Of a stretch of DNA of 31,691 nt, positions 8,737 to 31,045 are shown piece after piece. The DNA comes from a virus. The notes below the pieces were generated by a model that had not been told where the DNA came from, did no database searches, and saw only the letters and a program-made list of their open reading frames with translations. The DNA lies in IMG/VR virus record IMGVR_UViG_3300047357_000301, positions 1 to 31,691 of that record; one strand, given 5' to 3'. How positions within the stretch are numbered: the stretch's first letter is position 1; every line of letters starts with the position of its first letter. The position numbers were made by a program, and so were the translations under genes.

Positions 8737-11049
8737 ATGTCAAAAGAAATTTTAATCACTAAACGGGACGGAAGAAAAGAACCATTAGAGTTAGACAAGT
8801 TACACAAAGTAGTCTTCCATGCCTGTGAGAACATTACAGGAGTTAGTGAATCAGAAGTTGAGATAAAATCACACATACAGTTTTACACTGGAATCACCAG
8901 TGCAGAAATCCAAGAGACACTTATCAAAAGTGCGGCAGATCTAATCACAGAAGAAACTCCTAACTATCAATTTGTAGCAGGTAGACTAATTAACTACCAT
9001 TTGCGTAAACAAGTATATGGAACATTTACACCTCCTTGTCTGTGCGATATTATTCAAGATAATATAGACAGAGGTTTTTATGATCCTGAAATCTTAGAAC
9101 TTTACACAAAAGATGAAATCGACGAACTAAGCAACTACATCGTACACGAACGTGACGAAAGTTTAACGTATGCCGCGATGGAACAGTTTAGAGGAAAATA
9201 TTTGGTGCAAAATCGTACAACAGGGGAGATATTTGAAACTCCTCAGGTTGCTTACATGTTGATTTCTGCTACATTGTTTAGTGCATATCCAGAAGAAACT
9301 AGATTGCAGACTGTTAAAGAATACTATGACGCAGTTAGTATGCACTATATTAGTTTGCCTACACCTGTAATGGCTGGTGTACGCACACCGCAAAGACAAT
9401 TTAGTAGTTGTGTACTAATTGAAACAGACGATAGTTTAGACAGCATTAATGCAACTACAACAAGCATAGTTAAGTATGTAAGTCAGAAAGCAGGTATTGG
9501 TATTGGCGCAGGAAAAATTAGAGCAATTGGTTCGCCTATTAGGAGTGGAGACGCAACTCATACAGGAGTTATCCCCTTCTATAAATTATTTCAATCAGCA
9601 GTTAAGTCATGCTCACAAGGTGGAGTAAGAGGTGGAGCGGCCACACTATACTATCCTATTTGGCATTCAGAAATAGAAGATATGCTTGTACTAAAAAATA
9701 ATAAAGGTACAGAAGAGAATCGTGTTAGACACATGGATTATGGTGTACAGTTTAATAAACTAATGTATGAACGTCTAATACAAGGTGGCGACATCACATT
9801 GTTTTCACCACATGATGTTCCGGGTTTATATGAGGCTTTTTATGCAGACCAAGATAAATTCCAAGAACTGTATGAAACAGCAGAACGTAATACAAGAATT
9901 AAAAAGAAAACTATTAAAGCAATTGATCTATTCAGTGCATTTGTTACTGAAAGAAAAGACACAGGTAGAATTTATTTAATGAATGTTGACCATGCTAATA
10001 CACATGGTTCATTTAAAGAAGAAATAGCACCAGTTAGAATGAGTAACTTATGCTGTGAAATTAACCTGCCCACAAAGCCATTAATGAGCAGTAATGATGA
10101 AGATGGCGAAATAGCATTGTGTACATTGTCAGCAATTAACTGGGGAAGAATTAAGAGCCCACAAGAGTTCCAGAAGCCTTGTGAACTTGCTGTAAGAGGC
10201 TTAGACGCACTCTTAGACTACCAGAAATACCCTGTTATTGCGGCACAGTTGGCAACAGAAAAACGTAGACCTTTAGGGGTTGGTATTATTAACTTTGCAT
10301 TTTGGTTAGCAAAGAACGATAGTAATTATCAAGATCCTAATTTAGAATTAGTAGACGAATATGCAGAAGCATGGAGTTACTACTTAATTAAAGCAAGTGC
10401 CGACTTGGCAGTTGAAAAAGGTGCATGTCCAGGTACTAGTGAAACTAAGTACGGAGATGGAATAACACCCAACCAAACTTATAAAGAAGATGTTAACGAA
10501 TTAGTAAAACACAAAGAGAGAATGGACTGGAAAGGATTGCGTAAACAACTCAAAAATACCGGTATTAGAAACTCTACTTTGATGGCATTAATGCCTGCAG
10601 AAACGTCTGCTCAGATAAGTAATAGCACGAACGGAATCGAGCCACCTCGTAGTTTTGTTAGTGTTAAACAAAGTAAACATGGTGTACTCAAACAGGTAGT
10701 TCCGCAGTATGCTAAATTAAAAAATAAGTATGACTTACTTTGGGATCAGACTTCCCCAGAAGGATACTTAAAAATTATGGCAGTTCTACAAAAATACATC
10801 GACCAAGGTATTTCTGTGAACACAAGTTATAACCCTGAACACTTTGAAGATGAAAAAATCCCAATGAGTGTTCTACTACAGCATATCATCATGTTTTATA
10901 AATATGGTGGCAAACAGTTATACTATAACAACACTTACGATGGGCAAGGCGAGATTGATATTGATAAAGAAGAAAATGTCAAAAACGTTCAAGCAAACTT
11001 TGTGACTTCTGTTGTTGAAGATGATGACTGTGACAGTTGTAAGATTTAA
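8737..11049 (+). CDS. nrdA: Ribonucleotide reductase class Ia, large subunit
   Basis: This 770-residue enzyme reduces ribonucleoside diphosphates to deoxyribonucleotides for phage DNA synthesis, together with the NrdB radical subunit encoded next. The N-terminus carries an ATP-cone (ILITKRDGRKEPLELDKLHK). Catalytic residues fall at almost the same numbers as in E. coli: Cys225 (FSSCVL), Asn437, Cys439 and Glu441 (SNLCCEINLPT), Cys462 (ALCTLSAINW), Tyr729-Tyr730 (QLYYNNTY), and the C-terminal thiol pair Cys765/Cys768 (DCDSCKI). It is complete, with no intein or intron. It opens a four-gene operon from a strong sigma70 promoter, which fits early expression. Confidence 0.97.
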   Translation: MSKEILITKRDGRKEPLELDKLHKVVFHACENITGVSESEVEIKSHIQFYTGITSAEIQETLIKSAADLITEETPNYQFVAGRLINYHLRKQVYGTFTPPCLCDIIQDNIDRGFYDPEILELYTKDEIDELSNYIVHERDESLTYAAMEQFRGKYLVQNRTTGEIFETPQVAYMLISATLFSAYPEETRLQTVKEYYDAVSMHYISLPTPVMAGVRTPQRQFSSCVLIETDDSLDSINATTTSIVKYVSQKAGIGIGAGKIRAIGSPIRSGDATHTGVIPFYKLFQSAVKSCSQGGVRGGAATLYYPIWHSEIEDMLVLKNNKGTEENRVRHMDYGVQFNKLMYERLIQGGDITLFSPHDVPGLYEAFYADQDKFQELYETAERNTRIKKKTIKAIDLFSAFVTERKDTGRIYLMNVDHANTHGSFKEEIAPVRMSNLCCEINLPTKPLMSSNDEDGEIALCTLSAINWGRIKSPQEFQKPCELAVRGLDALLDYQKYPVIAAQLATEKRRPLGVGIINFAFWLAKNDSNYQDPNLELVDEYAEAWSYYLIKASADLAVEKGACPGTSETKYGDGITPNQTYKEDVNELVKHKERMDWKGLRKQLKNTGIRNSTLMALMPAETSAQISNSTNGIEPPRSFVSVKQSKHGVLKQVVPQYAKLKNKYDLLWDQTSPEGYLKIMAVLQKYIDQGISVNTSYNPEHFEDEKIPMSVLLQHIIMFYKYGGKQLYYNNTYDGQGEIDIDKEENVKNVQANFVTSVVEDDDCDSCKI

Positions 11050-12803: not shown

Positions 12804-13088
12804 ATGTTCGGAATAGGTAAAGTAGGTATGTCAATGTGCGGGCCAGGTGGTATTGTAACAGGTCCAGGTGCTCCTATGGTACTTGCCGAAGGTATGCCTG
12901 TAAGTGTAGCCGCAGATGGTGTTAAACCACACGGTGAGAATATGCATGCCAAACCAACTATTCTTCCACCAACATGTAGTAAAACTGTATTTGCAATGGG
13001 TAAACCAGTTGCAATGCAAAAACAAACTACAGCCACATGTGGTGATCCACTGACATTAGGTGCTGTTACTGTTAAAGTTGGTATCTAA
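12804..13088 (+). CDS. PAAR-domain spike tip protein
   Basis: This 94-residue protein has the repeated PAAR pattern: GPGAPMVLAEGMPVSV, HGENMH, TVFAMGKPVA and CGDP. His43, His48, Cys58 and Cys79 are candidates for zinc binding at the apex. In T4 the corresponding protein gp5.4 caps the needle of the central tail spike and helps pierce the outer membrane. The gene is transcribed from its own leaderless late promoter, as expected for a virion part. The last four bases overlap the convergent gene on the other strand. Confidence 0.92.
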   Translation: MFGIGKVGMSMCGPGGIVTGPGAPMVLAEGMPVSVAADGVKPHGENMHAKPTILPPTCSKTVFAMGKPVAMQKQTTATCGDPLTLGAVTVKVGI

Positions 13089-14174: not shown

Positions 14175-15728
14175 TTACGGTTTCTGGTTGTAAGCAGACT
14201 CGTAGTTTACAACTTCATCATATGACGTATCATCTGAATCATAATAGAATGTTTTAGGATTTTGATCTATGTCAAGTTCTGAAACATTTGTTGTGTAAAG
14301 TCCTACTGAGTATTCTTCTACCATTGTTGCCGCTGTAGTATCTGATCCTGTTCCTGGAACACTACCTCTAATAGCAAACAAGTATATACCTGGTGCTCTA
14401 TCTGCCGGGCAATTAGATGTTGAATCAATAGTAACAACACCTGTGTTTAGATCAACACTTATCCAAGGTGGACATGGAGCAAAGTCAAGTATCTTCTTGT
14501 TAGTAGCATTTGAATTTAATCCTAAGTCTACTGTACTTGCTGTAGCACCGTGTTTTACGTTTGCAATTCTTCCTGATGGTACAGTTGTTAGTACTCTTGA
14601 ATCTACGTTCTTAGTTGTAATAGCAGATTTATAAACACCTGCATAGTCAACGTTTGGATCTGAGTTATCAAAAGTTAAGTTGAAAATACCTGTGGCGTGA
14701 CCTGCCATTAGCATTTCTTCTTTAATCTCACTTGAGGATGCCGCTGTATCTCTTTCAACATAGTGTGTTGTGATACCTGCAACTAATCCTGCTGATAGAC
14801 TTGTTCCTGTACTACCAACATAATTTGATACGTTTGAAAAATCTGCAACATCTATGCCTACACCGTATGCAAAAATATCAAGTTCAGCACCATAGTTAAT
14901 AAAACTATTGCTTGAACTGTAAGGTGCGTTAGTAAATGATGTTACTTGTTCATCTGAGTTATAAGAACCTACTGTTACGATTTGGTCAACACCTGCTGGA
15001 GATTTAGTATTAACGTTGACACCATCGTTACCTGCCGCCGCTACAACAACTAGGTTACTTGCATTCATTTCTAAAACCTTTGCATCAACAAATGCATTAG
15101 TAGGTATTGTCCATGGCAGACATACTGATTTAACATTTGATTGTGTATTAGCCTTGTGGTGTACAAGTACAGCACTTAATGAATTAATAATATCACCGAT
15201 TGTTACAGTACCACCGTTTGCGTTAAACAGTTTTACGTTCTGTAAAATACAGTCTTTTGCAGAACCAATGTTCTTACCAACAATCATTGAGGCAACTGCT
15301 GTTCCATGACCGGCTTCATCACCGTAGTCACTTATTGCATCATTGTCGCCAAAGTTTGTCCATAAGTTTTGAATTTGTCTTCCGTCGAATTCTGCGTGGG
15401 AAGTGTTGATGCCTGTATCAACTAAATATACGAATTTACCACTACCAGTTCTTGCAGGATTCCAAGGTCTCTCACCTGATGAGTGAATACATCTGTCTAA
15501 GTGTGACGTAGAAAATGTAGCACCTGCTTGTACTGTAAGTGTTACTGATTCAGATGCATCTTGGCTGGCAGTTACACCAACTATAGCATCTTTCTGTGCC
15601 TCTGTAGCCTCTATTTCGTACGTTAAGTTAAAGCCTAATGTACTAACTACACTGGCACCTGCTGTAGTAATCGCACTTTGGGCCGCCGTATCATCGGCAC
15701 TATTCATGCTCACTAAGTATCTTGCCAT
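14175..15728 (-). CDS. Subtilisin-like serine protease (S8) with Ig-like C-terminal domain
   Basis: This 517-residue protein has the full catalytic triad: Asp104 (YLVDTGINTSH), His141 (GHGTAVASMIVG) and Ser310 (GTSLSAGLVAG), with oxyanion Asn234 (AAAGNDG). Residues about 1-68 resemble an I9-type propeptide, so autoprocessing is likely. Residues about 405-480 (PPWISVDLNTGVVTI, GIYLFAIRG) look like a putative Ig/cadherin-like domain of the kind found on extracellular and virion proteins. No signal peptide is seen. A late box lies upstream, and GGAGAT is the ribosome binding site. It is probably a virion-bound protease acting on host surface proteins or in particle maturation; which of these is undetermined. 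Confidence 0.9.
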   Translation of the reverse strand: MARYLVSMNSADDTAAQSAITTAGASVVSTLGFNLTYEIEATEAQKDAIVGVTASQDASESVTLTVQAGATFSTSHLDRCIHSSGERPWNPARTGSGKFVYLVDTGINTSHAEFDGRQIQNLWTNFGDNDAISDYGDEAGHGTAVASMIVGKNIGSAKDCILQNVKLFNANGGTVTIGDIINSLSAVLVHHKANTQSNVKSVCLPWTIPTNAFVDAKVLEMNASNLVVVAAAGNDGVNVNTKSPAGVDQIVTVGSYNSDEQVTSFTNAPYSSSNSFINYGAELDIFAYGVGIDVADFSNVSNYVGSTGTSLSAGLVAGITTHYVERDTAASSSEIKEEMLMAGHATGIFNLTFDNSDPNVDYAGVYKSAITTKNVDSRVLTTVPSGRIANVKHGATASTVDLGLNSNATNKKILDFAPCPPWISVDLNTGVVTIDSTSNCPADRAPGIYLFAIRGSVPGTGSDTTAATMVEEYSVGLYTTNVSELDIDQNPKTFYYDSDDTSYDEVVNYESAYNQKP

Positions 15729-18280: not shown

Positions 18281-19168
18281 ATGGCAAAGAAAAAACAAAA
18301 AACACATAAGAAGCCTCAACAAGCATCAGATGATTTAATGCATAAACTTCTTGATCAAAAGATTGAGATACCTGTTGGGTTACTTAGACAAAAGCATATC
18401 TTTATAGCAACACCTTGTTACGGTGGACAGTTGGGCGAGCCATACTTCAGAAGTATGATGAGACTTGCTATAATGTGTAACAAATATGATATTCCTTATA
18501 CTATTAGTACACTAGCAAACGAGAGTTTAATCACAAGAGGCAGAAATACACTTGTAAGTTTCTTTATGGAAAATCCAGAAGCAACACACTTGTTCTTTAT
18601 TGATGCTGATATTGAGTTTGAGCCTGAAGACGTTTTAAGAATGGTTGCATATGATAAACCAATTACTGTAGGTGCATATCCTAAAAAGGCAGTTAATTGG
18701 GAAAGTATTATACATGCCGCCAGAGCAAATCCAGATGAAACAGCACAAACTATTGAAGGACACAGTTCTAACTATGTTGTAAACTTTGACTTCTTGAGAG
18801 ATGAAAAAGGCGAGAAAACACCACAAGTGCAAATCTCAGATAACTTAATTAAACTTAAAGATGCTGGTACAGGTTTCATGTGTATTAAGAAAGAAACTAT
18901 ACAAGAGATGTTTGATAAACATTCTGATTTAAAATATGCTAACGACATTAACGTAGATCAAAAATTTGAGAAACACATGTACGCATTGTTTGACTGTATG
19001 ATTGATCCAGAAAGTAGACGTTACTTATCTGAGGATTATACTTTTTGCAGACGTTGGCAACAAATGGGCGGAGACGTTTGGCTTGATCCAAGAACAGCAC
19101 TCAATCATGTTGGACATTATACATTCAGAGGAAATATCAGAAAACTATTAACCGGAGAAGCATACTAA
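18281..19168 (+). CDS. Glycosyltransferase-like protein, GT-A fold
   Basis: This 295-residue protein has a basic N-terminus (MAKKKQKTHKK), a first strand HIFIATPCYGG, a nucleotide-region helix (ITRGRNTLVSFFM), and the metal-binding motif FFIDADIEF (Asp108-x-Asp110) typical of GT-A transferases that use nucleotide sugars. A later segment, DAGTGFMCIKKE, and a C-terminal DYTFCRRWQQMGG are usual in this group. It may glycosylate phage DNA, virion proteins or host surface polymers; the acceptor is not deducible. It overlaps the next glycosyltransferase by one base. Confidence 0.85.
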   Translation: MAKKKQKTHKKPQQASDDLMHKLLDQKIEIPVGLLRQKHIFIATPCYGGQLGEPYFRSMMRLAIMCNKYDIPYTISTLANESLITRGRNTLVSFFMENPEATHLFFIDADIEFEPEDVLRMVAYDKPITVGAYPKKAVNWESIIHAARANPDETAQTIEGHSSNYVVNFDFLRDEKGEKTPQVQISDNLIKLKDAGTGFMCIKKETIQEMFDKHSDLKYANDINVDQKFEKHMYALFDCMIDPESRRYLSEDYTFCRRWQQMGGDVWLDPRTALNHVGHYTFRGNIRKLLTGEAY

Positions 19169-20055
19169 TGTCAGAGCAAGTTGAAACCATAGAAAGTAAA
19201 GTAGATAAAACAATTATATCTGTGTTGTTGCCTACAAGAGGCAGAACAGATGTTCTAAAGAAAAGTTTAAAAAGTTTAATTGATAATGCAAATGATCCAA
19301 CAAGACTAGAGATACTTTTAGGACTAGATGATGACGATGAAGCAACTAGACCTTATATCGAAAAACATATTGCACCATATATGCAAGAAAAAAGTGTTGA
19401 ATGTAGAGCAAATATATTTGAACCTTTAGGCTATGAAAAATTAAACATTTATGTAAACACACTGGCCTCATCAGCAACAGGACAATGGATATTCTTTTGG
19501 AACGATGATGCAATAATGGAAACTAAGGGTTGGGACGATATCATTGAAAGCAAAAATGGTGAGTTCAAATTATTTGCACCTAAGGATAATCATGACGGTC
19601 ATCCTTATGCAATACTGCCTATACTACCTATGGATTGGTTTAGACTATTAGATCATTTAAGTATGAATGCACAAAACGATGCATGGTTAAGTCATATTGC
19701 ATACATGTTAGATATTTTTGAAAGAATAGACATACAGTTTTTACATGACAGAGCAGACTTAACAGGTAACAATGATGATGAAACTTTCAAAAATAGAAAG
19801 TACATGGAAGGTAATCCAGACGATCCAGCAGACTTCTCACATCCAGATATGCAACAAGCAAGAGTTAGAAGTGCATACAAACTAGCATGGTTCTTAGATA
19901 GAATTGGCAAACACTCAGACTGGTGGGATAAAGTTGTAGCAGGAGAACAAGATCCATTTGAGAAAATGGTATTCCCTGAAGGCGTTAAAGGTGCAGGGCA
20001 GTTAGAAGCAAACAAGGAACCAGAAATATCGGATGACGAAATTATAGAGTTGTAA
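19168..20055 (+). CDS. Family 2-like glycosyltransferase
   Basis: This 295-residue protein begins with the first strand of GT2 enzymes (ISVLLPTRGRTDVLKKSLKS, residues 17-36), followed by LLGLDDDDEAT (50-60) and the metal motif FFWNDDAIM (Asn112-Asp113-Asp114). The C-terminal third is charged and ends in a very acidic tail. It is coupled to the transferase before it and sits two bases from a 2OG-Fe(II) oxygenase, so the three may act on one glycan or glycoconjugate. That pathway is inference. Confidence 0.85.
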   Translation: MSEQVETIESKVDKTIISVLLPTRGRTDVLKKSLKSLIDNANDPTRLEILLGLDDDDEATRPYIEKHIAPYMQEKSVECRANIFEPLGYEKLNIYVNTLASSATGQWIFFWNDDAIMETKGWDDIIESKNGEFKLFAPKDNHDGHPYAILPILPMDWFRLLDHLSMNAQNDAWLSHIAYMLDIFERIDIQFLHDRADLTGNNDDETFKNRKYMEGNPDDPADFSHPDMQQARVRSAYKLAWFLDRIGKHSDWWDKVVAGEQDPFEKMVFPEGVKGAGQLEANKEPEISDDEIIEL

Positions 20056-22209: not shown

Positions 22210-22389
22210 ATGGACCCAGTACTATTTTTTATACCATATGTAATTGGTACATTGCTAGGACTACATTGGGGATTTAAGAGTGGTATCAGAAATGGTTCTG
22301 AGGCTACAATTGATGCACTAATGGAAAAAGGTTTTTTAAAGTGGAAGAAAGGGAGGGAAGGCATAGTTGAATTCATAAAGGTAGACTGA
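22210..22389 (+). CDS. Small membrane-anchored phage protein
   Basis: This is a 59-residue frame with GAAGAGGTG as ribosome binding site. The N-terminus, PVLFFIPYVIGTLLGLHWG, forms a transmembrane helix; the rest is a cytoplasmic amphipathic and basic part (MEKGFLKWKKGREG). The stop overlaps the desaturase start (TGATG), so the two are coupled. Small proteins of this pattern recur in marine T4-like phages. A membrane-associated helper of the desaturase is possible but unproven. Confidence 0.65.
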   Translation: MDPVLFFIPYVIGTLLGLHWGFKSGIRNGSEATIDALMEKGFLKWKKGREGIVEFIKVD

Positions 22390-23141
22390 TGCTTTTTAAA
22401 CTCTTAGGAAAATATAATGGACCAATTCACACAGCAATTTTTATGTTGTGTAGTGTTGCATTCGCATATTTAACATTCTTTGAGTTTACACTTACACAAT
22501 GGTTAGCCATATTTATAAGTGGTTCCATATTTACAGGATATACCACTTCAGGATTTTTGCACAGATATTGTGCTCATAGAAGTTGGAAAATACCCCGTTG
22601 GTTAGAAGTATTTCTCTTAGGTAGTACCACAGCATTACTAAATCAACCTGCAATGGGTTGGGCGGCAATACACTTATCTCACCATAAACACACAGACAAA
22701 GAGGGAGACCCTCATGGTCACGTGCATAGTATATGGGAAAACTTTTGTGTATTCAACAAAGTACCACCATTAAGATTTGTACCTAGATGGATGTTTAAGG
22801 ATAGATTGTATGGCTTTCAAGCAAGATGGTATTGGGAAATAGCAATAGTGCTACAAGCAATAGTTTGTCTTACACTAGGATGGCAAGTGCTAGTATCATT
22901 CATTGCATTGTCTTATTTGTTCCAAATATTTGTAAATCTAGTAGGACATTCCAAGGCTAGAATGGAACCTCGTAATAGTGAAATAGGTGCATTCCTTTGG
23001 ATGGGCGAAATGTACCACAAAAATCACCACTGGAATCCAAGCAATCCTAGGTTTGGAAAGTGGGACGGAACCTACTATTTGCTCATAAAATGGGTACAAA
23101 TGTTCGTTTCTGAGCCAAAATTACCTAAAAAAATCTTATAA
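22389..23141 (+). CDS. Membrane fatty acid desaturase
   Basis: This 250-residue integral membrane protein has the three histidine clusters of acyl desaturases: HRYCAH (58-63), HLSHHKH (95-101) and HKNHH (210-214). These hold the diiron centre. Hydrophobic segments lie at about 13-35, 37-56, 70-88 and 150-188. The enzyme would introduce a double bond, most likely delta-9, into host acyl chains and so alter membrane fluidity. Electrons must come from host ferredoxin or a similar donor. Desaturases are known auxiliary genes of marine phages. It is expressed from a sigma70-type promoter via the small gene at 22210. Confidence 0.92.
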   Translation: MLFKLLGKYNGPIHTAIFMLCSVAFAYLTFFEFTLTQWLAIFISGSIFTGYTTSGFLHRYCAHRSWKIPRWLEVFLLGSTTALLNQPAMGWAAIHLSHHKHTDKEGDPHGHVHSIWENFCVFNKVPPLRFVPRWMFKDRLYGFQARWYWEIAIVLQAIVCLTLGWQVLVSFIALSYLFQIFVNLVGHSKARMEPRNSEIGAFLWMGEMYHKNHHWNPSNPRFGKWDGTYYLLIKWVQMFVSEPKLPKKIL

Positions 23142-24489: not shown

Positions 24490-24809
24490 TGATACAGATA
24501 CTGCAAGAAGTAACTGATTGGGGTAAGTTTAAAGTCAATAACGGCATTTATCATATCAATGGTGCTGGTAGTTTAGTAGCATATCAAGTTAATGCAGACT
24601 CTGTAGTACAAGTTCTTAAAACACCTAGCAAACAGTTCTCTAAAAGCAGACGTAAGTTTGTTAAGATTGGTGAAAGGCCTGAGGAACTTGCAAGTCACAT
24701 CGTTGAAGTTAAAGGTTCTAAAGGCAATGTTTACTTTGTAGACACAGAAAAGAACACTTGTACTTGCCCAGGTTTCACATTCCGCGGACATTGTAAGCAT
24801 ATTAAATAA
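24489..24809 (+). CDS. SWIM zinc-finger protein
   Basis: This 106-residue protein ends in a SWIM-type finger: Cys91-x-Cys93, Cys102-x-His104 (TCTCPGFTFRGHCKHI). The preceding part is a basic beta-rich stretch (KQFSKSRRKFVKIGE). SWIM domains bind DNA or proteins. It is the last gene of the alarmone hydrolase operon. Its 3' end runs into the late box of the deformylase gene. Confidence 0.82.
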   Translation: MIQILQEVTDWGKFKVNNGIYHINGAGSLVAYQVNADSVVQVLKTPSKQFSKSRRKFVKIGERPEELASHIVEVKGSKGNVYFVDTEKNTCTCPGFTFRGHCKHIK

Positions 24810-24812
24810 ATA
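24806..24812 (+). promoter_or_regulatory. T4-type late promoter box, 5 nt before ATG
   Basis: ATAAATA overlaps the stop of the SWIM gene and is followed by ATAGT and the ATG at 24818. No Shine-Dalgarno sequence is present. It predicts leaderless late transcription of the deformylase, glutaredoxin and GH6 genes. Confidence 0.7.
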
Positions 24813-24817
24813 ATAGT

Positions 24818-25339
24818 ATGTTAGTACAACCAAACCACCCAGCATTACACAAGGTAGCAGATATAGATCCGTTTACTGTTGAAGGTATTGATTGGGTAGA
24901 AAGACAAAAAGAAATGATCCAAATTATGCATGACAAATTTGGAATAGGTTTAGCGGCTCCTCAATTAGGTGCAAGTTACAATATGTTTGTAATGACGCAT
25001 TCTACTCTAGGTGATATAGGGGTATATAACCCTCAAATAATTTCGCAATCCGAAGAAACTGCTTGTCAAGAAGAAGGTTGTTTAACATTCCCACTACTGT
25101 TTTTTATGGTTACACGACCTGCAAGTTGTGTTGTAAAATTTCAAGATGCATTCCAAAAAGAACATGAAATGGAACTTACTGGTAGAGATGCACAATGTTT
25201 CCAGCACGAGTTTGATCACTTACAAGGCTTATTGTTTTTAGAATATGCCAGTGATATGAAACTGCAACGTGCAATGAAAAAACGTGACAAGACAGTAAAA
25301 AAACTACTAAAGATGCAGAAAAATAATGAATACAGTTAA
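24818..25339 (+). CDS. def: Peptide deformylase
   Basis: This 173-residue metalloenzyme removes the formyl group from new proteins. All three family motifs are present: GIGLAAPQ (42-49), EEGCLT with the metal-binding Cys88, and QHEFDHLQG (129-137) with His130, Glu131 and His134. The C-terminal helix is basic (RDKTVKKLLKMQK). Phage deformylases are known from marine T4-like phages, where they may speed maturation of formylated proteins. It is preceded by a leaderless late promoter and overlaps the glutaredoxin gene by 14 bases. Confidence 0.93.
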   Translation: MLVQPNHPALHKVADIDPFTVEGIDWVERQKEMIQIMHDKFGIGLAAPQLGASYNMFVMTHSTLGDIGVYNPQIISQSEETACQEEGCLTFPLLFFMVTRPASCVVKFQDAFQKEHEMELTGRDAQCFQHEFDHLQGLLFLEYASDMKLQRAMKKRDKTVKKLLKMQKNNEYS

Positions 25340-25631
25340 AGAACAAATCAAGGAAATGATTTCATCTAACGATGCAATCCTGTTTATGAAAGGCACACCA
25401 CACCAACCAAATTGTGGGTTTAGTGCAAAGGTAATACAAATACTTATTGAAGTAGGTAAACCTTTTAGTTATGTAGACGTATTAGCAGACCCTGATATTA
25501 GAGCAAACTTACCTAGTGTTAGTGATTGGCCTACATTCCCTCAACTGTTTATCAAAGGTGAACTAGTTGGAGGGTGTGATATAATTACCGAAATGCATGA
25601 CGTTAATGAACTTGCTCCCTTATTTGAATAA
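25326..25631 (+). CDS. Monothiol CGFS glutaredoxin (Grx4-like)
   Basis: This 101-residue protein shows the class II signature: KGTPHQPNCGFSAKV with the single active cysteine in CGFS, then WPTFPQLFIKGELVGGCDII. Proteins of this class bind a [2Fe-2S] cluster with glutathione and deliver it to other proteins; they are poor thiol reductants. It is thus functionally different from the CPFC glutaredoxin at 12188. It overlaps the deformylase gene and precedes the GH6 gene by nine bases, in a late operon. Confidence 0.92.
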   Translation: MNTVKEQIKEMISSNDAILFMKGTPHQPNCGFSAKVIQILIEVGKPFSYVDVLADPDIRANLPSVSDWPTFPQLFIKGELVGGCDIITEMHDVNELAPLFE

Positions 25632-25640
25632 GGCAAGTTT

Positions 25641-26483
25641 ATGGATTATCCATTCTTTGTTAATAACTTCGACAGAGTTAAAGACCATAAACTAACACAC
25701 CCAGAAGTAGGCGAAATATTTAAACACCCAGTATCCTTTTGGTATGGTCAACGTAATGGTAAAAGTTGTAAAGACTTGCACAAAGGCATAGAACGTTTAC
25801 TAAAAAGAACATTACCACAACTGCCTGTATTTGTTATATATAATTTACCCTCACGTGACATGGGCCATTACAGTAAAGGTGGTGCTAGTGGTGAAGAAGA
25901 ATACTTAGACTTCTTATTCCAATTCTGCAATGGTATTGGAGAACACAAACCTATTGTTATATTTGAGCCTGATGCTTTACCTCATAGTACACTAATGGAC
26001 AAAGAGGATAAAGAGTTTCGCATAAGACTAATGAAAGCAGGCATAGACATATTAACTACAAAGAGTAATGCTATTGTTTATGTTGACATAGGACATAGTA
26101 ATTGGCTAGAACCAGACGTTGCAGGAAAACTTTTAAACTCGGTTACTAACAGACATGTACGTGGATTTAGTGTTAATGTAAGTAACTTTAGAAGTACTGA
26201 AGAGAGCATTAAATGGGCTCTTAGAGTTACAGAGAACACGTCTAACAAACGTTTTGTTATCGATACGAGTCGTAATGGCAATGGTCCTTATGGAAACGAG
26301 TGGTGTAATCCTCCGGGAAGAGCATTAGGAATACCTCCTACTTGTGATACTGGAATAGATCAATGTGATGCTTTCTTATGGATTAAAATACCAGGAGAAT
26401 CAGACGGAACTGGTAATGGCGGTCCTAGAGCAGGTAGATTTTGGCCTGAATATGGTGCTGAATTAGTTAAGAATAAAGGTTAA
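25641..26483 (+). CDS. Glycoside hydrolase family 6 (cellulase-type)
   Basis: This 280-residue protein matches GH6 along its length: FVIYNLPSRDMGHYSKGG (64-81, Asp73), VIFEPDALP (106-114, Asp111 as probable catalytic acid), VYVDIGHSNWL (146-156), FVIDTSRNGNGP (205-216), EWCNPPGRALGIPPT (220-234) and WIKIPGESDG (247-256). Cys222 and Cys235 or Cys242 could bridge. GH6 enzymes cut beta-1,4-glucan with inversion. There is no signal peptide and no cellulose-binding module, so it is released by lysis or carried on the virion. The likely target is cellulose or a similar beta-glucan around the host. It is expressed with deformylase and CGFS glutaredoxin from a late promoter. Confidence 0.93.
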   Translation: MDYPFFVNNFDRVKDHKLTHPEVGEIFKHPVSFWYGQRNGKSCKDLHKGIERLLKRTLPQLPVFVIYNLPSRDMGHYSKGGASGEEEYLDFLFQFCNGIGEHKPIVIFEPDALPHSTLMDKEDKEFRIRLMKAGIDILTTKSNAIVYVDIGHSNWLEPDVAGKLLNSVTNRHVRGFSVNVSNFRSTEESIKWALRVTENTSNKRFVIDTSRNGNGPYGNEWCNPPGRALGIPPTCDTGIDQCDAFLWIKIPGESDGTGNGGPRAGRFWPEYGAELVKNKG

Positions 26484-26911
26484 CTTACACCGCTTGGGTC
26501 TAAGTCATCTGCATAGTCTGGATCGACTACATCAACTGAACCTTGTGATCCATCGTCAGTCATGTCATCACCAGGTGGTACTTCTAAACTATTTTCTAAA
26601 TAATGTTTACAATCGCCTATATAGGTTTTTGATTTAGTAAGTTTAGCCTGCCACCAATGTGGGAAATCTGAATCTGGTAAGCCATCTAGCATTTTGTATA
26701 GTTCTACGCAATATGAACCCATTTCAAATAAGTCTCTTTTAATCATGTCTCTTTCATTGTCAACATGACCTACTGCTAGTTTTTCATTATCACTATCACC
26801 TGCGTCTTTTTCATTGACGTCAACTTCTGATAATAATGTAGTTGAACGAGGTTGCTCTACGATGTGAGGAGTAATACCTGCTAGTTGTTGTAATTTTTCT
26901 ATTTCGTTCAT
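26480..26911 (-). CDS. Acidic virion-associated protein with LxxLAGI start
   Basis: This 143-residue protein opens with MNEIEKLQQLAGI, the same short motif that recurs three times in the 831-residue product upstream of it. The middle segment (MIKRDLFEMGSYCVELYKML, then PHWWQAKLTKSKTYI) is a helical pair that I know from structural proteins of T4-like marine phages. The C-terminus is Asp-rich and probably disordered. It follows the nucleotidyltransferase fusion by one base and its end overlaps the GH6 gene on the other strand. Confidence 0.75.
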   Translation of the reverse strand: MNEIEKLQQLAGITPHIVEQPRSTTLLSEVDVNEKDAGDSDNEKLAVGHVDNERDMIKRDLFEMGSYCVELYKMLDGLPDSDFPHWWQAKLTKSKTYIGDCKHYLENSLEVPPGDDMTDDGSQGSVDVVDPDYADDLDPSGVS

Positions 26912-26912
26912 T

Positions 26913-29408
26913 TTATAATCCTGCTAGTTTTTTAAGTTCTTCAACAGTTTCATCTAAAGCATTTTCTATTGCTTGATCAACTGATTCTTCTTTACGTCTT
27001 AGATTGTATCCACCTTTTAAATTAAGTTCGCCTTGAGTAGGACCACTATCTGGCATAGGTAAGTTTAATTCTTGTTGTCCTTTTGGTCCTGATCCAACAA
27101 TTTTTAATCCTATTTCTGCTAACCTGTCTTGTGTAACTTTATTAATTTTACCTTTAGCATCTTTGATCATAGCAAATGCTGGTTGGTCTCCTGTTGGAGG
27201 AGATACGGATATAAATTGATTAGGTCTCATTAATCCAGGTACCTCTTGAAGCATTTTAATTTCTACTCCTGCTTTGTCTACCAACTTATACTGGTCATCT
27301 GGTTCACCAAAGTCTGGCTCTGGCTCTTGAAACTCATCTAATTCTTTTGATTCATATTCAGCATGATCCATACTGACTTCATTTGCACAAGGTATTAATA
27401 CATCTTGTCTATATTTTTCTTTAACTTCATCAGTTACATCTTGGACTTGATAATACTCTTTCATGTCCATCTCACACTCTTCAGGTGTAACACCACAGTA
27501 ATCACATAAATCATCAAAACTCATTTGACCTACTGTTGGCTCATTGTCATACTTGTTATCGTAGTCATCTTCACCTATAATCTCTTCTATAACTGTTGCA
27601 AGGTCAACATTTTCAGTAACACTTTCTTTTTTGCTATCTCTGTGCTTCTTATAAATTTCATATGCATCTGCATGAGCCTGTATCTCATCATCGCTTGGCT
27701 CTCTTCCATCATCGTCGTATTGAACATATCCGGAACCGTTGCATTGTGGACAATCTTCATCAGCACCATCACATTGATAGCATTCTCCACCTTCATTAAG
27801 TCCTGCAAGTTTTCTAAGTTCTTGCATAGATTCATTTTCATTATAACCTTTCATACCTTTATGACGTTTTTCGTAGTCGCTCCACATGTCATTGGTTGCA
27901 ATATCACTATATTCTGTACGCACAATATCCCAATATTGGCCATACTCTAAAGGAGCACCATTTACATCAAACGGCTCACCGTTTAACACGGTAAATTTAA
28001 TTTCTTCGCCTTTATTATTTTTAATTGACTGTACTTCTAAATTTGGATTTGCTTCTTCGATTGCTTCTTCTGGGTTACCATATGTTTCACATGGGTTTTT
28101 ACCACAGCCACAATTTTTAGGCTCGTCTTTTTTGGCTTCCATTTCTAACTCATCTTCTGGAGCATCAAATTCTGGATCATCTAAACTTACCATTTCAGGC
28201 TCGTCCATATCTACTTCTGGTTCTGGCTCTGCTTCTAAATCATCAAACTTATCTAGTTCTGAATCTTTTCTATGCAATTCCATATTGTTGATTGCATTGT
28301 TTACAAGTTCAATAGTCCACTTACGATCTGCATCGCCTAGTCCCATTATACCACCTTCTGGTAAATTATCTACTATTGCACTTAATCTATCACTGACTGC
28401 AAATCCTTCTTCGTCATTTGCCAGTCTTGCATTAATCTCACCTAGCACATATCCTGGAGATTGTGCTAAAAGTTTTAAAAACATTTCTTTTTTAACTGCT
28501 GGATCATTTACATCAGCACCATCTGGAAACTGATTAGCCATACTTCTTGCTCTTTGTCTGCTGTTGATAGGCTTACCTGTGTCAACACTGATCATATCTT
28601 CTGGAGCAATTTTAGTAAATCCTACTGAAGCAGGATTACTTGCCGCCGCCTTCTCAGGTCTTTCTGCGGCCGCTTTCTGATCCTTTTTGCTTATTCCAGG
28701 TTCGTAGTCCATGCCACCTTTACCTGGTTTAAAATTAACAGGCGCTTCGTCTAGCAAGCCTGCCAGTTTCTTTAAAATGTCTAAGTTCTCTTTCATAATT
28801 TTGCCTGTTATTTTGTCGTAAACCAAGTTAAATATCTCTTGGTTAAATTCCCCCATATAACTAGTATATGTTTCTTTAGCACTATCTAAGTCTGGAGCAC
28901 TAAGTAAAGCACTTCTAAAAGCACTTGCACTTGCTACATCTCCGCTTATGCCTGGTACATTAGGTGCTTGTATTACATAACCGTGCCTTACCATAGGCTG
29001 TGCGTTATTAGTATTTATCACATCTTCACCATTTTGAAGATAACTCTTGCTACCATCTTTTAAAGGTTTGAACTGAAATCTAGCATCTCCAGACTGCATA
29101 TCCTTTTCACCTACTGCAAAAAACAACGAATGTTCTTCTGCTGGTGAAAATGCATCTATGTAAGAGTCTTTGTTGTATAAGTTATTACCTGCCGCAATAA
29201 TTATTCTATCTTGAGGAATGTCATGTTGCTGAGTCATAATGCTGAGTTTTTCTTGTGCATCAAATGGTGATTTACCTGGCTCTACTTTGTTTGCTGTAGC
29301 AATAAACACTTCAGCATCAGTATGTTCTGCTTGTAACTTACGAAATACTTCCGCATGGTGCGGTAGCATAGGTTGGAATCTTCCTGGATATATAATAACC
29401 TTTTTCAT
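26913..29408 (-). CDS. Nucleotidyltransferase domain fused to long acidic virion-type tail
   Basis: I start at the ATG at 29408, five bases after a late box; an upstream in-frame start at 29435 would lie before that promoter. The first 200 of 831 residues resemble NMN/cytidylyl-transferases: VIIYPGRFQP (4-13) and an ISSTxxR-like SASAFR (160-165). The usual HxGH reads LPHH (15-18), with the first histidine replaced by Leu. Residues 390-430 are Asp/Glu-rich. A DnaJ-like finger lies at 543-560 (Cys543, 546, 553, 556), with further Cys at 433-440 and 635-645. LKKLAGL or LRKLAGL occurs at 212, 531 and 825, the last forming the C-terminus. The late promoter suggests a virion protein. Confidence 0.82.
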   Translation of the reverse strand: MKKVIIYPGRFQPMLPHHAEVFRKLQAEHTDAEVFIATANKVEPGKSPFDAQEKLSIMTQQHDIPQDRIIIAAGNNLYNKDSYIDAFSPAEEHSLFFAVGEKDMQSGDARFQFKPLKDGSKSYLQNGEDVINTNNAQPMVRHGYVIQAPNVPGISGDVASASAFRSALLSAPDLDSAKETYTSYMGEFNQEIFNLVYDKITGKIMKENLDILKKLAGLLDEAPVNFKPGKGGMDYEPGISKKDQKAAAERPEKAAASNPASVGFTKIAPEDMISVDTGKPINSRQRARSMANQFPDGADVNDPAVKKEMFLKLLAQSPGYVLGEINARLANDEEGFAVSDRLSAIVDNLPEGGIMGLGDADRKWTIELVNNAINNMELHRKDSELDKFDDLEAEPEPEVDMDEPEMVSLDDPEFDAPEDELEMEAKKDEPKNCGCGKNPCETYGNPEEAIEEANPNLEVQSIKNNKGEEIKFTVLNGEPFDVNGAPLEYGQYWDIVRTEYSDIATNDMWSDYEKRHKGMKGYNENESMQELRKLAGLNEGGECYQCDGADEDCPQCNGSGYVQYDDDGREPSDDEIQAHADAYEIYKKHRDSKKESVTENVDLATVIEEIIGEDDYDNKYDNEPTVGQMSFDDLCDYCGVTPEECEMDMKEYYQVQDVTDEVKEKYRQDVLIPCANEVSMDHAEYESKELDEFQEPEPDFGEPDDQYKLVDKAGVEIKMLQEVPGLMRPNQFISVSPPTGDQPAFAMIKDAKGKINKVTQDRLAEIGLKIVGSGPKGQQELNLPMPDSGPTQGELNLKGGYNLRRKEESVDQAIENALDETVEELKKLAGL

Positions 29409-29413
29409 ATTAC

Positions 29414-29420
29414 TATTTAT
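29414..29420 (-). promoter_or_regulatory. T4-type late promoter box, 5 nt before ATG
   Basis: The minus strand reads TGATAAATA, then GTAAT, then the ATG at 29408. It overlaps the stop of the SDR gene. No Shine-Dalgarno sequence is present. Confidence 0.7.
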
Positions 29421-29959
29421 CAGAAAGGTCGCCAAATACTTAATTCACCTATTTCTACATGTTGTGGTTGATTTATTGCAAAAGCAATTGGTTGTACACT
29501 CTCTTCGGGTGTTAGCATGTTTACTTTTCCATGGTTACTAGATGTCATGTCTGTTTCTACATAACCTGGATTTACATTTATCATTCTGCATTTGCGTTGC
29601 CTATCAGAGAACATTAACAAGAATGCTTGATGACTTAGTGCGGCCTTGTGTGCTGAATAACCTGATTCATTTCCACTTAGTCCTGGGTACTTGCTCATAC
29701 TACTGATGTTTACAATAGTCTTAGTTTCATCGTATTTCCATTTTTGCCACAAACCATTTAGAATGTCTACTTGTTTAAAATCAAAGAATGCATTGTTTAC
29801 AAAAACATCAAAACCTTTTACTGCTCTAATTATAATATTTGAATTTTGTATGTCAAATCCATTGCTTCTACTAAAGCCTTCTACTTCGTGATCCACAGAC
29901 AAGGTATCATACAATGCTTTTCCTATGCCTCTACTATGACCAGTTATTGCTATTTTCAT
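29420..29959 (-). CDS. Short-chain dehydrogenase/reductase
   Basis: This 179-residue protein has the Rossmann motif TGHSRGIG (6-13), NNAF (55-58), the serine segment NISSMSK (84-90), the catalytic YSAHK (Tyr101, Lys105) and NPGYVETDM. It is shorter than usual (about 240), since the C-terminal substrate region is reduced. It would reduce or oxidise a carbonyl or alcohol with NAD(P)H; the substrate is unknown. The ribosome binding site GGAGAA lies in the end of the AOX gene, two bases away, so both are in one operon. Confidence 0.9.
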   Translation of the reverse strand: MKIAITGHSRGIGKALYDTLSVDHEVEGFSRSNGFDIQNSNIIIRAVKGFDVFVNNAFFDFKQVDILNGLWQKWKYDETKTIVNISSMSKYPGLSGNESGYSAHKAALSHQAFLLMFSDRQRKCRMINVNPGYVETDMTSSNHGKVNMLTPEESVQPIAFAINQPQHVEIGELSIWRPF

Positions 29960-29961
29960 TA

Positions 29962-30531
29962 TTATTCTCCATCTGCGTATCTGTGATTGACTACACTATG
30001 ATGCTCTTCGTCTGCTCTAACTTTTTTAATTAAATCAGATAGTTTTGCATTCTTTTTCATTTTGTAGTAGTCTATTGCTAATTGAGGTGCAGAAACATTC
30101 TCTACTTCTCCATTTTCTACCATTGTTAGATAGTCAGTGTAACTTCTAACTGCTTCTTCCTCAAAGTACCCAATCATTCTGTGTGCTGTTTTATAATCTA
30201 TTATGTATAACAAAGTATAAAATATAATAAAAATTAACTGAGCAAATAATACTAACCATCTTTCAAACCAATTTGGTTTTGCTATTGCTATAAAAAACAT
30301 CAAATGCATTCTTTCATTTTCTGCTTCTGCTAACATTTCTCTGATGTCTGGTCCATAGCCTGTTTTCATTTTACGCAGACTTTTAAAGTGTAACATCATG
30401 CCTGCTACCATACCAGGTACTCCAGCCACAGTTTCTAATACTACTGCTCTGTGTCCATAACGTTTTGCAAAGAATGTATCAGCCATAAAGCGAAAAAACT
30501 TTGTCATGCTCATTGCTAGTTTATTTCTCAT
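29962..30531 (-). CDS. Alternative oxidase (AOX), ubiquinol:oxygen oxidoreductase
   Basis: I prefer the ATG at 30531, with GGAG seven bases upstream, to the TTG at 30543. The 189-residue product has all four diiron motifs: LETVAGVPGMV (32-42, Glu33), NERMHL (72-77, Glu73, His76), FEEEA (123-127) and RADEEHH (172-178, Glu175, His178). The hydrophobic stretch WLVLFAQLIFIIFYTLLYII (92-111) anchors it to the inner membrane. It would pass electrons from quinol to oxygen without pumping protons. The motifs match mitochondrial and proteobacterial AOX rather than cyanobacterial PTOX. It lies in a late-promoter operon with a hydroxylase-like gene and an SDR, overlapping the former by 11 bases. Confidence 0.92.
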   Translation of the reverse strand: MRNKLAMSMTKFFRFMADTFFAKRYGHRAVVLETVAGVPGMVAGMMLHFKSLRKMKTGYGPDIREMLAEAENERMHLMFFIAIAKPNWFERWLVLFAQLIFIIFYTLLYIIDYKTAHRMIGYFEEEAVRSYTDYLTMVENGEVENVSAPQLAIDYYKMKKNAKLSDLIKKVRADEEHHSVVNHRYADGE

Positions 30532-31045
30532 ATCTAACTCCAACTATATGATATCTATCTTTCCATCCAAAGTTAATTGCACTATGTAATCCTGTGGTGT
30601 TTACTTGGTATGTGCTACCTACTTCTAAATGATACATTTTAGGCTCTGTTCTTTCGTCAAAAAACATTAAGTATGCATCTGGATTTGTTTCAACAGGTAT
30701 ATGCAATCTAATATTTATTTTACCATTGTCGCTATCAGAATGAATACTATAGTTGTTATGTGATGGTAACTTTAACAGTCTCCAACGTGTATATTCGGGA
30801 AACTGATTTATAAGTTCTTCAAAGTAAGTGCCTTTAAGGCGTTCGTTGATTTCGCAATATGCTTTTTCAGGATACTGCAAATGCTGTATTTTGCCTGTGC
30901 TTTCCTGCCATTGATTGTTGCCAAGTACACTGGTTAGTGTTAATTGATTTGGATTTTGAAACCCTACGTCTTCCAATAGACTATCAAAGTCTTTCTTTAA
31001 ACGAACTGGGTCTGTTTGATAATCAAGTTTAGCAACATGGGACAT
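30521..31045 (-). CDS. Aspartyl/asparaginyl beta-hydroxylase-like 2OG oxygenase
   Basis: This 174-residue cupin-type protein has NYSIHSDSDNG (His102, Asp104) followed by NIRLHIPVETNP with Arg113, and GLHSAINFG with His154. This is the order of the Asp/Asn beta-hydroxylase group. It would hydroxylate a side chain using 2-oxoglutarate and oxygen. Such genes are common in marine T4-like phages, with no known target. The ATG lies five bases after a late box, so a leaderless late mRNA covering this gene, AOX and SDR is predicted. Confidence 0.83.
   Translation of the reverse strand: MSHVAKLDYQTDPVRLKKDFDSLLEDVGFQNPNQLTLTSVLGNNQWQESTGKIQHLQYPEKAYCEINERLKGTYFEELINQFPEYTRWRLLKLPSHNNYSIHSDSDNGKINIRLHIPVETNPDAYLMFFDERTEPKMYHLEVGSTYQVNTTGLHSAINFGWKDRYHIVGVRYEK

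Follow-up and report, generated by a model that had tools for sequence, protein, structure and literature searches.

The DNA analysed here (the window, meaning the whole stretch of 31,691 bp) is a virus record, a fragment without gp23, and it carries on its plus strand a 280-aa ORF with an ATG start that is predicted, from Pfam, PDB, fold and residue conservation, to encode a GH6 beta-1,4-glucanase. The glutaredoxin ORF ahead of it overlaps the deformylase ORF and ends 9 bp before GH6, whose 3' end in turn overlaps the convergent gene p143 by 4 bp. The features that matter for what follows are these:

12804-13088, plus strand: PAAR-motif protein (phrog_281, E 1.1e-4), with a TAAATA-N5-ATG promoter, which supports the late class
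18281-19168, plus strand: 295-aa conserved protein, glycosyltransferase-like (phrog_1574), at 30 loci in the first scan
19168-20055, plus strand: GT2 glycosyltransferase, conserved upstream of GH6 (PF00535, E 4.6e-6; 33 loci)
24805-24812, plus strand: late-promoter element AATAAATA, with TAAATA at 24807-24812 and a gap of 5 nt to the deformylase ATG; predicted leaderless start
24818-25339, plus strand: peptide deformylase, opening the GH6 unit (PF01327, E 4.1e-35)
25326-25631, plus strand: CGFS monothiol glutaredoxin (PF00462, E 2.1e-19; site QPNCGFSAK)
25641-26483, plus strand: predicted GH6 beta-1,4-glucanase, catalytic domain only
26480-26911, minus strand: p143, convergent to GH6, with the N-terminus MNEIEKLQQLAGI; a conserved neighbour
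26913-29435, minus strand: p840, with an N-terminal cytidyltransferase-like part (phrog_395, E 6.3e-7)
29962-30543, minus strand: alternative oxidase (AOX; Pfam E 4.1e-68)

The only Pfam family found in the ORF was Glyco_hydro_6 (PF01341), with an E-value of 6.8e-48 and a score of 164.5 bits (cut-off 27 bits), covering positions 17-298 of the 305 in the profile, while a PHROG search gave no match, so that the gene is absent from that phage family library. Among PDB sequences, phmmer matched Mycobacterium tuberculosis (Mtb) Cel6 (1up0, E 5.5e-55) and also Thermobifida fusca Cel6A, and a profile built from 23 viral sequences retrieved the same set. An AlphaFold2 model (mean pLDDT 77, pTM 0.83), weakest at the active-site loops 75-78, 212-227 and 251-267 (pLDDT below 50), had Mtb Cel6 1uoz as its top Foldseek match (TM 0.83, 36% identity), with T. 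fusca Cel6A 1tml also matched at TM 0.83, and the distorted-barrel fold of the GH6 family is thus present in the model of the phage ORF. With these enzymes it shares the common fold, the four catalytic aspartates, the glucan subsites and the size of an endoglucanase domain of about 280 aa, at about 30-36% identity to bacterial GH6 endoglucanases by structural alignment.

Relatives of this GH6 occur on at least 110 IMG/VR contigs, the best 80 of which were kept. The aligned viral sequences fall into clade 1 (71 sequences, including that of the window) and clade 2 (10 sequences), about 45% identical to each other. A maximum-likelihood tree from a quick search groups the two clades together (SH-aLRT 95), apart from all cellular copies except that of L139, and the nearest cellular GH6 are 40-46% identical to the viral ones. 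The viral copies of both clades therefore appear, from the tree, to form one virus-only clade apart from the long-branched L139, a Pacebacteria MAG whose GH6 (9935-10762) has neither signal peptide nor the usual Cys pair and lies near a 705-aa GT2 synthase. The GH6 of Streptomyces phage Gilgamesh and that of a faecal phage sit instead among cellular sequences, which argues for separate acquisitions. Two side features of individual relatives were also seen: in a clade 2 phage (L233, 1094-2261) a glucosamine-6-phosphate isomerase-like gene and a PIG-L deacetylase stand upstream of GH6, and the GH6 of L026 and L035 carry a C-terminal extension of 30-35 aa with the zinc-ribbon-like Cys/His pattern HRC...KKCxxCGLK.

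The catalytic residues of the phage enzyme are Asp73, Asp111 (acid), Asp149 and Asp255 (base), together with Glu253. The four aspartates align with Asp79, 117, 156 and 265 of T. fusca Cel6A, whose sequence, 100% identical to 1tml, was the guide for residue numbering, and they are invariant in 81/81 viral sequences. The same holds for the glucan-subsite residues Trp41, Tyr73, Arg78, Trp162, Lys259 and Glu263 and for Asn190 (T. fusca numbering), and Trp231 is kept in all 71 sequences of clade 1 and replaced by His in all 10 of clade 2. Furthermore, dN/dS values of 0.066-0.083 against the four nearest relatives show, at the sequence level, strong purifying selection, and the phage GH6 very probably cleaves some beta-1,4 glycan.

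Typical traits of secreted cellulases, namely a signal peptide and disulfides, were not found in this enzyme. The ORF has no N-terminal extension ahead of the domain and hence no signal peptide, and Pfam shows a single domain with no binding module. The Mtb and T. fusca enzymes, unlike the phage one, are secreted and carry disulfides: Cys80 and Cys125 (T. fusca numbering) are each present in 77/80 cellular and 0/81 viral GH6, and the Cys directly after the GESDG motif, part of a second disulfide, in 77/80 cellular versus 18/81 viral. In the alignment, every viral copy checked has thus lost the structural disulfide known from secreted GH6, a loss that fits folding in a reducing cytoplasm. The initial annotation had described an end-to-end GH6 match with catalytic aspartates, lacking signal peptide and binding module and lying in a phage late operon; the description of the enzyme is confirmed, the ORF opening directly with the GH6 domain, and a late operon is supported.

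Evidence for late expression comes from the spacing of TAAATA before start codons. The bare octamer TATAAATA is not enriched in the window, and the promoter becomes visible only by position-specific counting: TAAATA stands exactly 5 nt ahead of the start codon in 6 of the 37 window ORFs (567, 3572, 12804, 24818, 26913 and 30521), whereas none of the other spacings between 0 and 29 nt occurs more than once. A T4-type late unit, with a TATAAATA-like element at a fixed distance, is thus found here as TAAATA with a 5-nt gap. In relatives the arrangement recurs in 15/341 ORFs of G016 and 7/113 of G010, over a background of about 0-1 per position, and 32 of 59 deformylase starts carry an in-frame TAAATA-N5/6-ATG. 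Since the genes with the 5-nt gap include the terminase large subunit, the tail tube, a virion-structural-family match and PAAR, the class can be read as one of late genes. T4 late promoters start transcription about 6 nt past the element, and with a similar start the messages are predicted to begin at or beside the ATG, i.e. to be leaderless. The positional counts therefore support late expression of the deformylase-glutaredoxin-GH6 unit, probably from leaderless messages, in line with the leaderless late promoter that had been proposed for it. More widely, TAAATA-N5-ATG seems to be the mark of a late gene class, probably leaderless, across the jumbo-phage clade (the window and the G016 loci L046-L061).

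The immediate neighbours differ in how constant they are. Deformylase and p143 are frequent around the GH6 of relatives, while glutaredoxin occurs there only occasionally (10 matching ORFs). p143 was present in 42/43 loci of the first scan and had no match in Pfam or PHROG; its N-terminal MNEIEKLQQLAGI motif is conserved across the family and the remainder is variable. A packaging motif common to the N-termini of p143 and GH6 was considered and rejected, since LQQLAGI marks p143 alone. p840 has a separate TAAATA-N5-ATG promoter, which lies before an internal ATG and gives an 831-aa form.

The window comes from an uncultured jumbo phage of the T4 superfamily. The contig of its largest relative (G016, the same as locus L027) measures 339,794 bp, beyond 200 kb, and encodes a gp23 capsid protein (E 2.3e-81). 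This protein reaches 71% identity to its counterparts in Pseudomonas jumbo phages of the PA5oct type and about 62% to those in Rak2-type phages, and the terminase is 56% identical to that of PA5oct. The PA5oct- and Rak2-like isolate records resemble this relative in gp23 and terminase, but no GH6 was found in them, unlike in the clade of the window. Stand-alone lysozymes are encoded by several relatives, of the GH24 type in G016, G017, G015, G031 and G004 and of the GH19 type in G008 and G020; in G016 the lysozyme lies about 10 kb from GH6. As to other gene content, the AOX of the window shares 70% identity with that of the 340-kb relative, and C48C1 is the only isolate phage record with a relative (58%). 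The same fragment carries a fatty-acid desaturase gene (22389-23141) and a subtilase gene (14175-15728), and in the 340-kb relative an open frame (L060, 2213-19999) that spans no fewer than 5929 codons runs past the edge of the fetched piece and may encode a giant virion protein.

Whether GH6 belongs to the core of this clade was judged by probing with the neighbouring 295-aa protein, at the 80 loci most similar to the window. GH6 was visible in 36/80, and 8 loci with at least 8 kb downstream had no GH6 in the fetched piece. Five of these 8 (L249, L250, L257, L259 and L285) are on contigs that do carry GH6 farther off, beyond the 10-kb flank (L169, L204, L178, L180 and L185), and the remaining 3 contigs stop short of the deformylase-p143 site, so that no clear absence was found among the probe contigs reaching the GH6 locus. 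By this count GH6 appears to behave as a core gene of the clade, and since the 80 loci are the most window-like ones, this core status speaks for the clade and not for all jumbo phages.

Clues to the host are fewer. The GH6 scan pointed to no host, as no cellular or MAG contig exceeded about 46% identity: the nearest cellular GH6 (Patescibacteria, Myxococcota, Actinomycetota) reach 40-46% at best and lie, except for L139, on the opposite side of the tree. AOX was not decisive either, with 18 matches in 399 Pseudomonadota genomes and the best at 56-59%. A cyanophage reading is not supported, as psbA is absent from 26 related contigs and the AOX is not close to cyanophage PTOX. Two contigs on a side branch, L224 and L226, have a GH6 56% identical to that of the window, and here a Bacteroidota host is suggested by a TonB-dependent receptor with a CarboxypepD_reg domain on the same contig as the phage-type GH6 of L226 (92-5771), together with the missing Shine-Dalgarno signal in both (12 ORFs only). 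The same host is not favoured for the main clade, given that clade 1 uses Shine-Dalgarno sites (33-43% versus 9-14% in shuffled sequence), whereas L224 and L226 do not. GH6 would then be present in phages of apparently differing host types, which a widespread substrate fits as well as a host-specific coat does.

Enzymes acting on bacterial surface glycans offer points of comparison. The Streptomyces GH6 CslZ is active on cellulose, on chitin and also on peptidoglycan; when its catalytic Asp is replaced (D120A), degradation of both peptidoglycan and CMC is lost (PMC9040799). Encoded in the cslA-glxA-cslZ cluster, CslZ resembles the phage enzyme in being a GH6 without CBM and works on a bacterial surface glucan, but it is a cellular lipoprotein with a role in glycan deposition. 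Gilgamesh gp72 is likewise a phage GH6 (36% identity), from a phage whose host genus, Streptomyces, makes the CslA glucan (PMC9040799), and differs in being a 444-aa fusion of CBM_4_9 and GH6 that lies among minor tail genes and groups with cellular GH6. Erwinia phage S6 has an active GH5 cellulase and a predicted GH48, and its infectivity is tied to host cellulose synthesis (PMC9544554); its gp094 and gp095 are thus phage beta-1,4-glucanases linked to host cellulose, although they are multi-domain GH48 and GH5 enzymes of an N4-like podovirus. By analogy, Gilgamesh gp72 and phage S6 can be taken as precedents for a coat-directed role.

The explanation we favour, and hold only tentatively, is that GH6 is a late, cytoplasmic, phage-specific endo-beta-1,4-glycanase that cuts a glucan coat of the host at lysis. 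The enzyme would be produced in the cytoplasm of the host at a late stage of infection and would build up inside the cell, and since it is synthesised late and without export, its substrate would most simply be met when the cell opens. It would then cleave a beta-1,4-linked glucan, such as cellulose or a cellulose-like exopolysaccharide or sheath, on the host and its neighbours, and removal of this glucan would help very large virions to escape and spread. Cutting of the wall would be left to the ordinary GH24 or GH19 lysozyme that several relatives own, so that GH6 would serve a different beta-1,4 glycan. On the other hand, GH6 may itself cut the beta-1,4 bonds of peptidoglycan, as an accessory, second lysin released by the holin beside the GH24 or GH19 endolysin. 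CslZ and its inactive mutant lend weight to this, and the missing signal peptide, late expression, core status and varied host types suit a universal wall target, which would explain core status in different hosts without any special coat. Although this is the most serious alternative, we regard it as rather unlikely, given that the endolysin role looks filled by the lysozymes of the relatives (which also weakens the idea of GH6 as the only endolysin), that the subsite aromatics are those of glucan-binding GH6, and that activity of GH6 on peptidoglycan comes from a single paper (PMC9040799).

An action at adsorption, with GH6 as a free-standing enzyme, carried by the virion outside or inside, for breaching a glucan coat, is compatible with the late promoter common to the GH6 unit and virion genes and with the position of gp72 among the minor tail genes of Gilgamesh. 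It is made improbable by the architecture, a lone catalytic domain to which neither a tail-binding part nor a beta-helix or CBM is joined, and by a location outside any tail module, among deformylase, glutaredoxin, p143 and p840. Very improbable is an intracellular action on a glycan made by phage or host, for example the products of the two neighbouring glycosyltransferases. Two conserved glycosyltransferase-like genes do lie upstream of GH6 in many loci, and the cytosolic-type GH6 of the Pacebacteria MAG lies near a GT2 synthase; the 295-aa glycosyltransferase-like gene, however, is found as well in T4-like isolates that have no GH6, and we know of no cytoplasmic beta-1,4-glucan in such hosts. 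Most improbable of all is an auxiliary metabolic gene (AMG) with which the phage would help the host, or its released contents, to digest environmental beta-glucan for carbon. Viral GH6, GH9 and GH39 from Mariana Trench sediments have been named carbon-degradation AMGs (PMC8725595), and that GH6, compared here by description only, is also on viral contigs; but without an export signal the enzyme would be of no outside use to a living host, its promoter is late, and the gene is core-like and not patchy as an accessory gene would be.

Returning to coat cutting at release, the initial annotation had proposed removal of a cellulose-like coat at release or entry and, with it, a host that makes such a polymer. 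The first part is plausible and partly supported, by the phage origin, the intact glucanase active site, the absence of export and the late promoter, and for a late enzyme that is not secreted it is reasonable to suppose that it acts after lysis or from the virion. The second is not strict, because GH6 enzymes such as CslZ also cut chitin and peptidoglycan, and GH6 need not imply a cellulose-making host. In a broader formulation, possible though on the whole doubtful, the virus-only subfamily, a core late gene handed down through the jumbo-phage clade and found in other phage lineages too, would be a dedicated "second lysin": at release it would breach some layer of beta-1,4-glycan in the envelope or matrix, and this may be peptidoglycan or an undescribed cellulose-like layer of common aquatic bacteria.

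The GH6 family, phage cellulases and viral GH6 as a carbon AMG (PMC8725595) are already known, and a search of open-licence papers found no description of this viral GH6 clade. What appears new is a GH6 subfamily that is confined to viruses, is not secreted and belongs to the core late genes of aquatic jumbo phages. This calls for caution in reading viral cellulase genes as carbon-cycling AMGs, as GH6 here behaves as core infection machinery. Moreover, a fixed, selected and unsecreted glucanase in widespread aquatic jumbo phages would point to a barrier of glycan that they have to breach; on the side of the hosts this would be a surface trait that has gone largely unrecorded and that can be tested.
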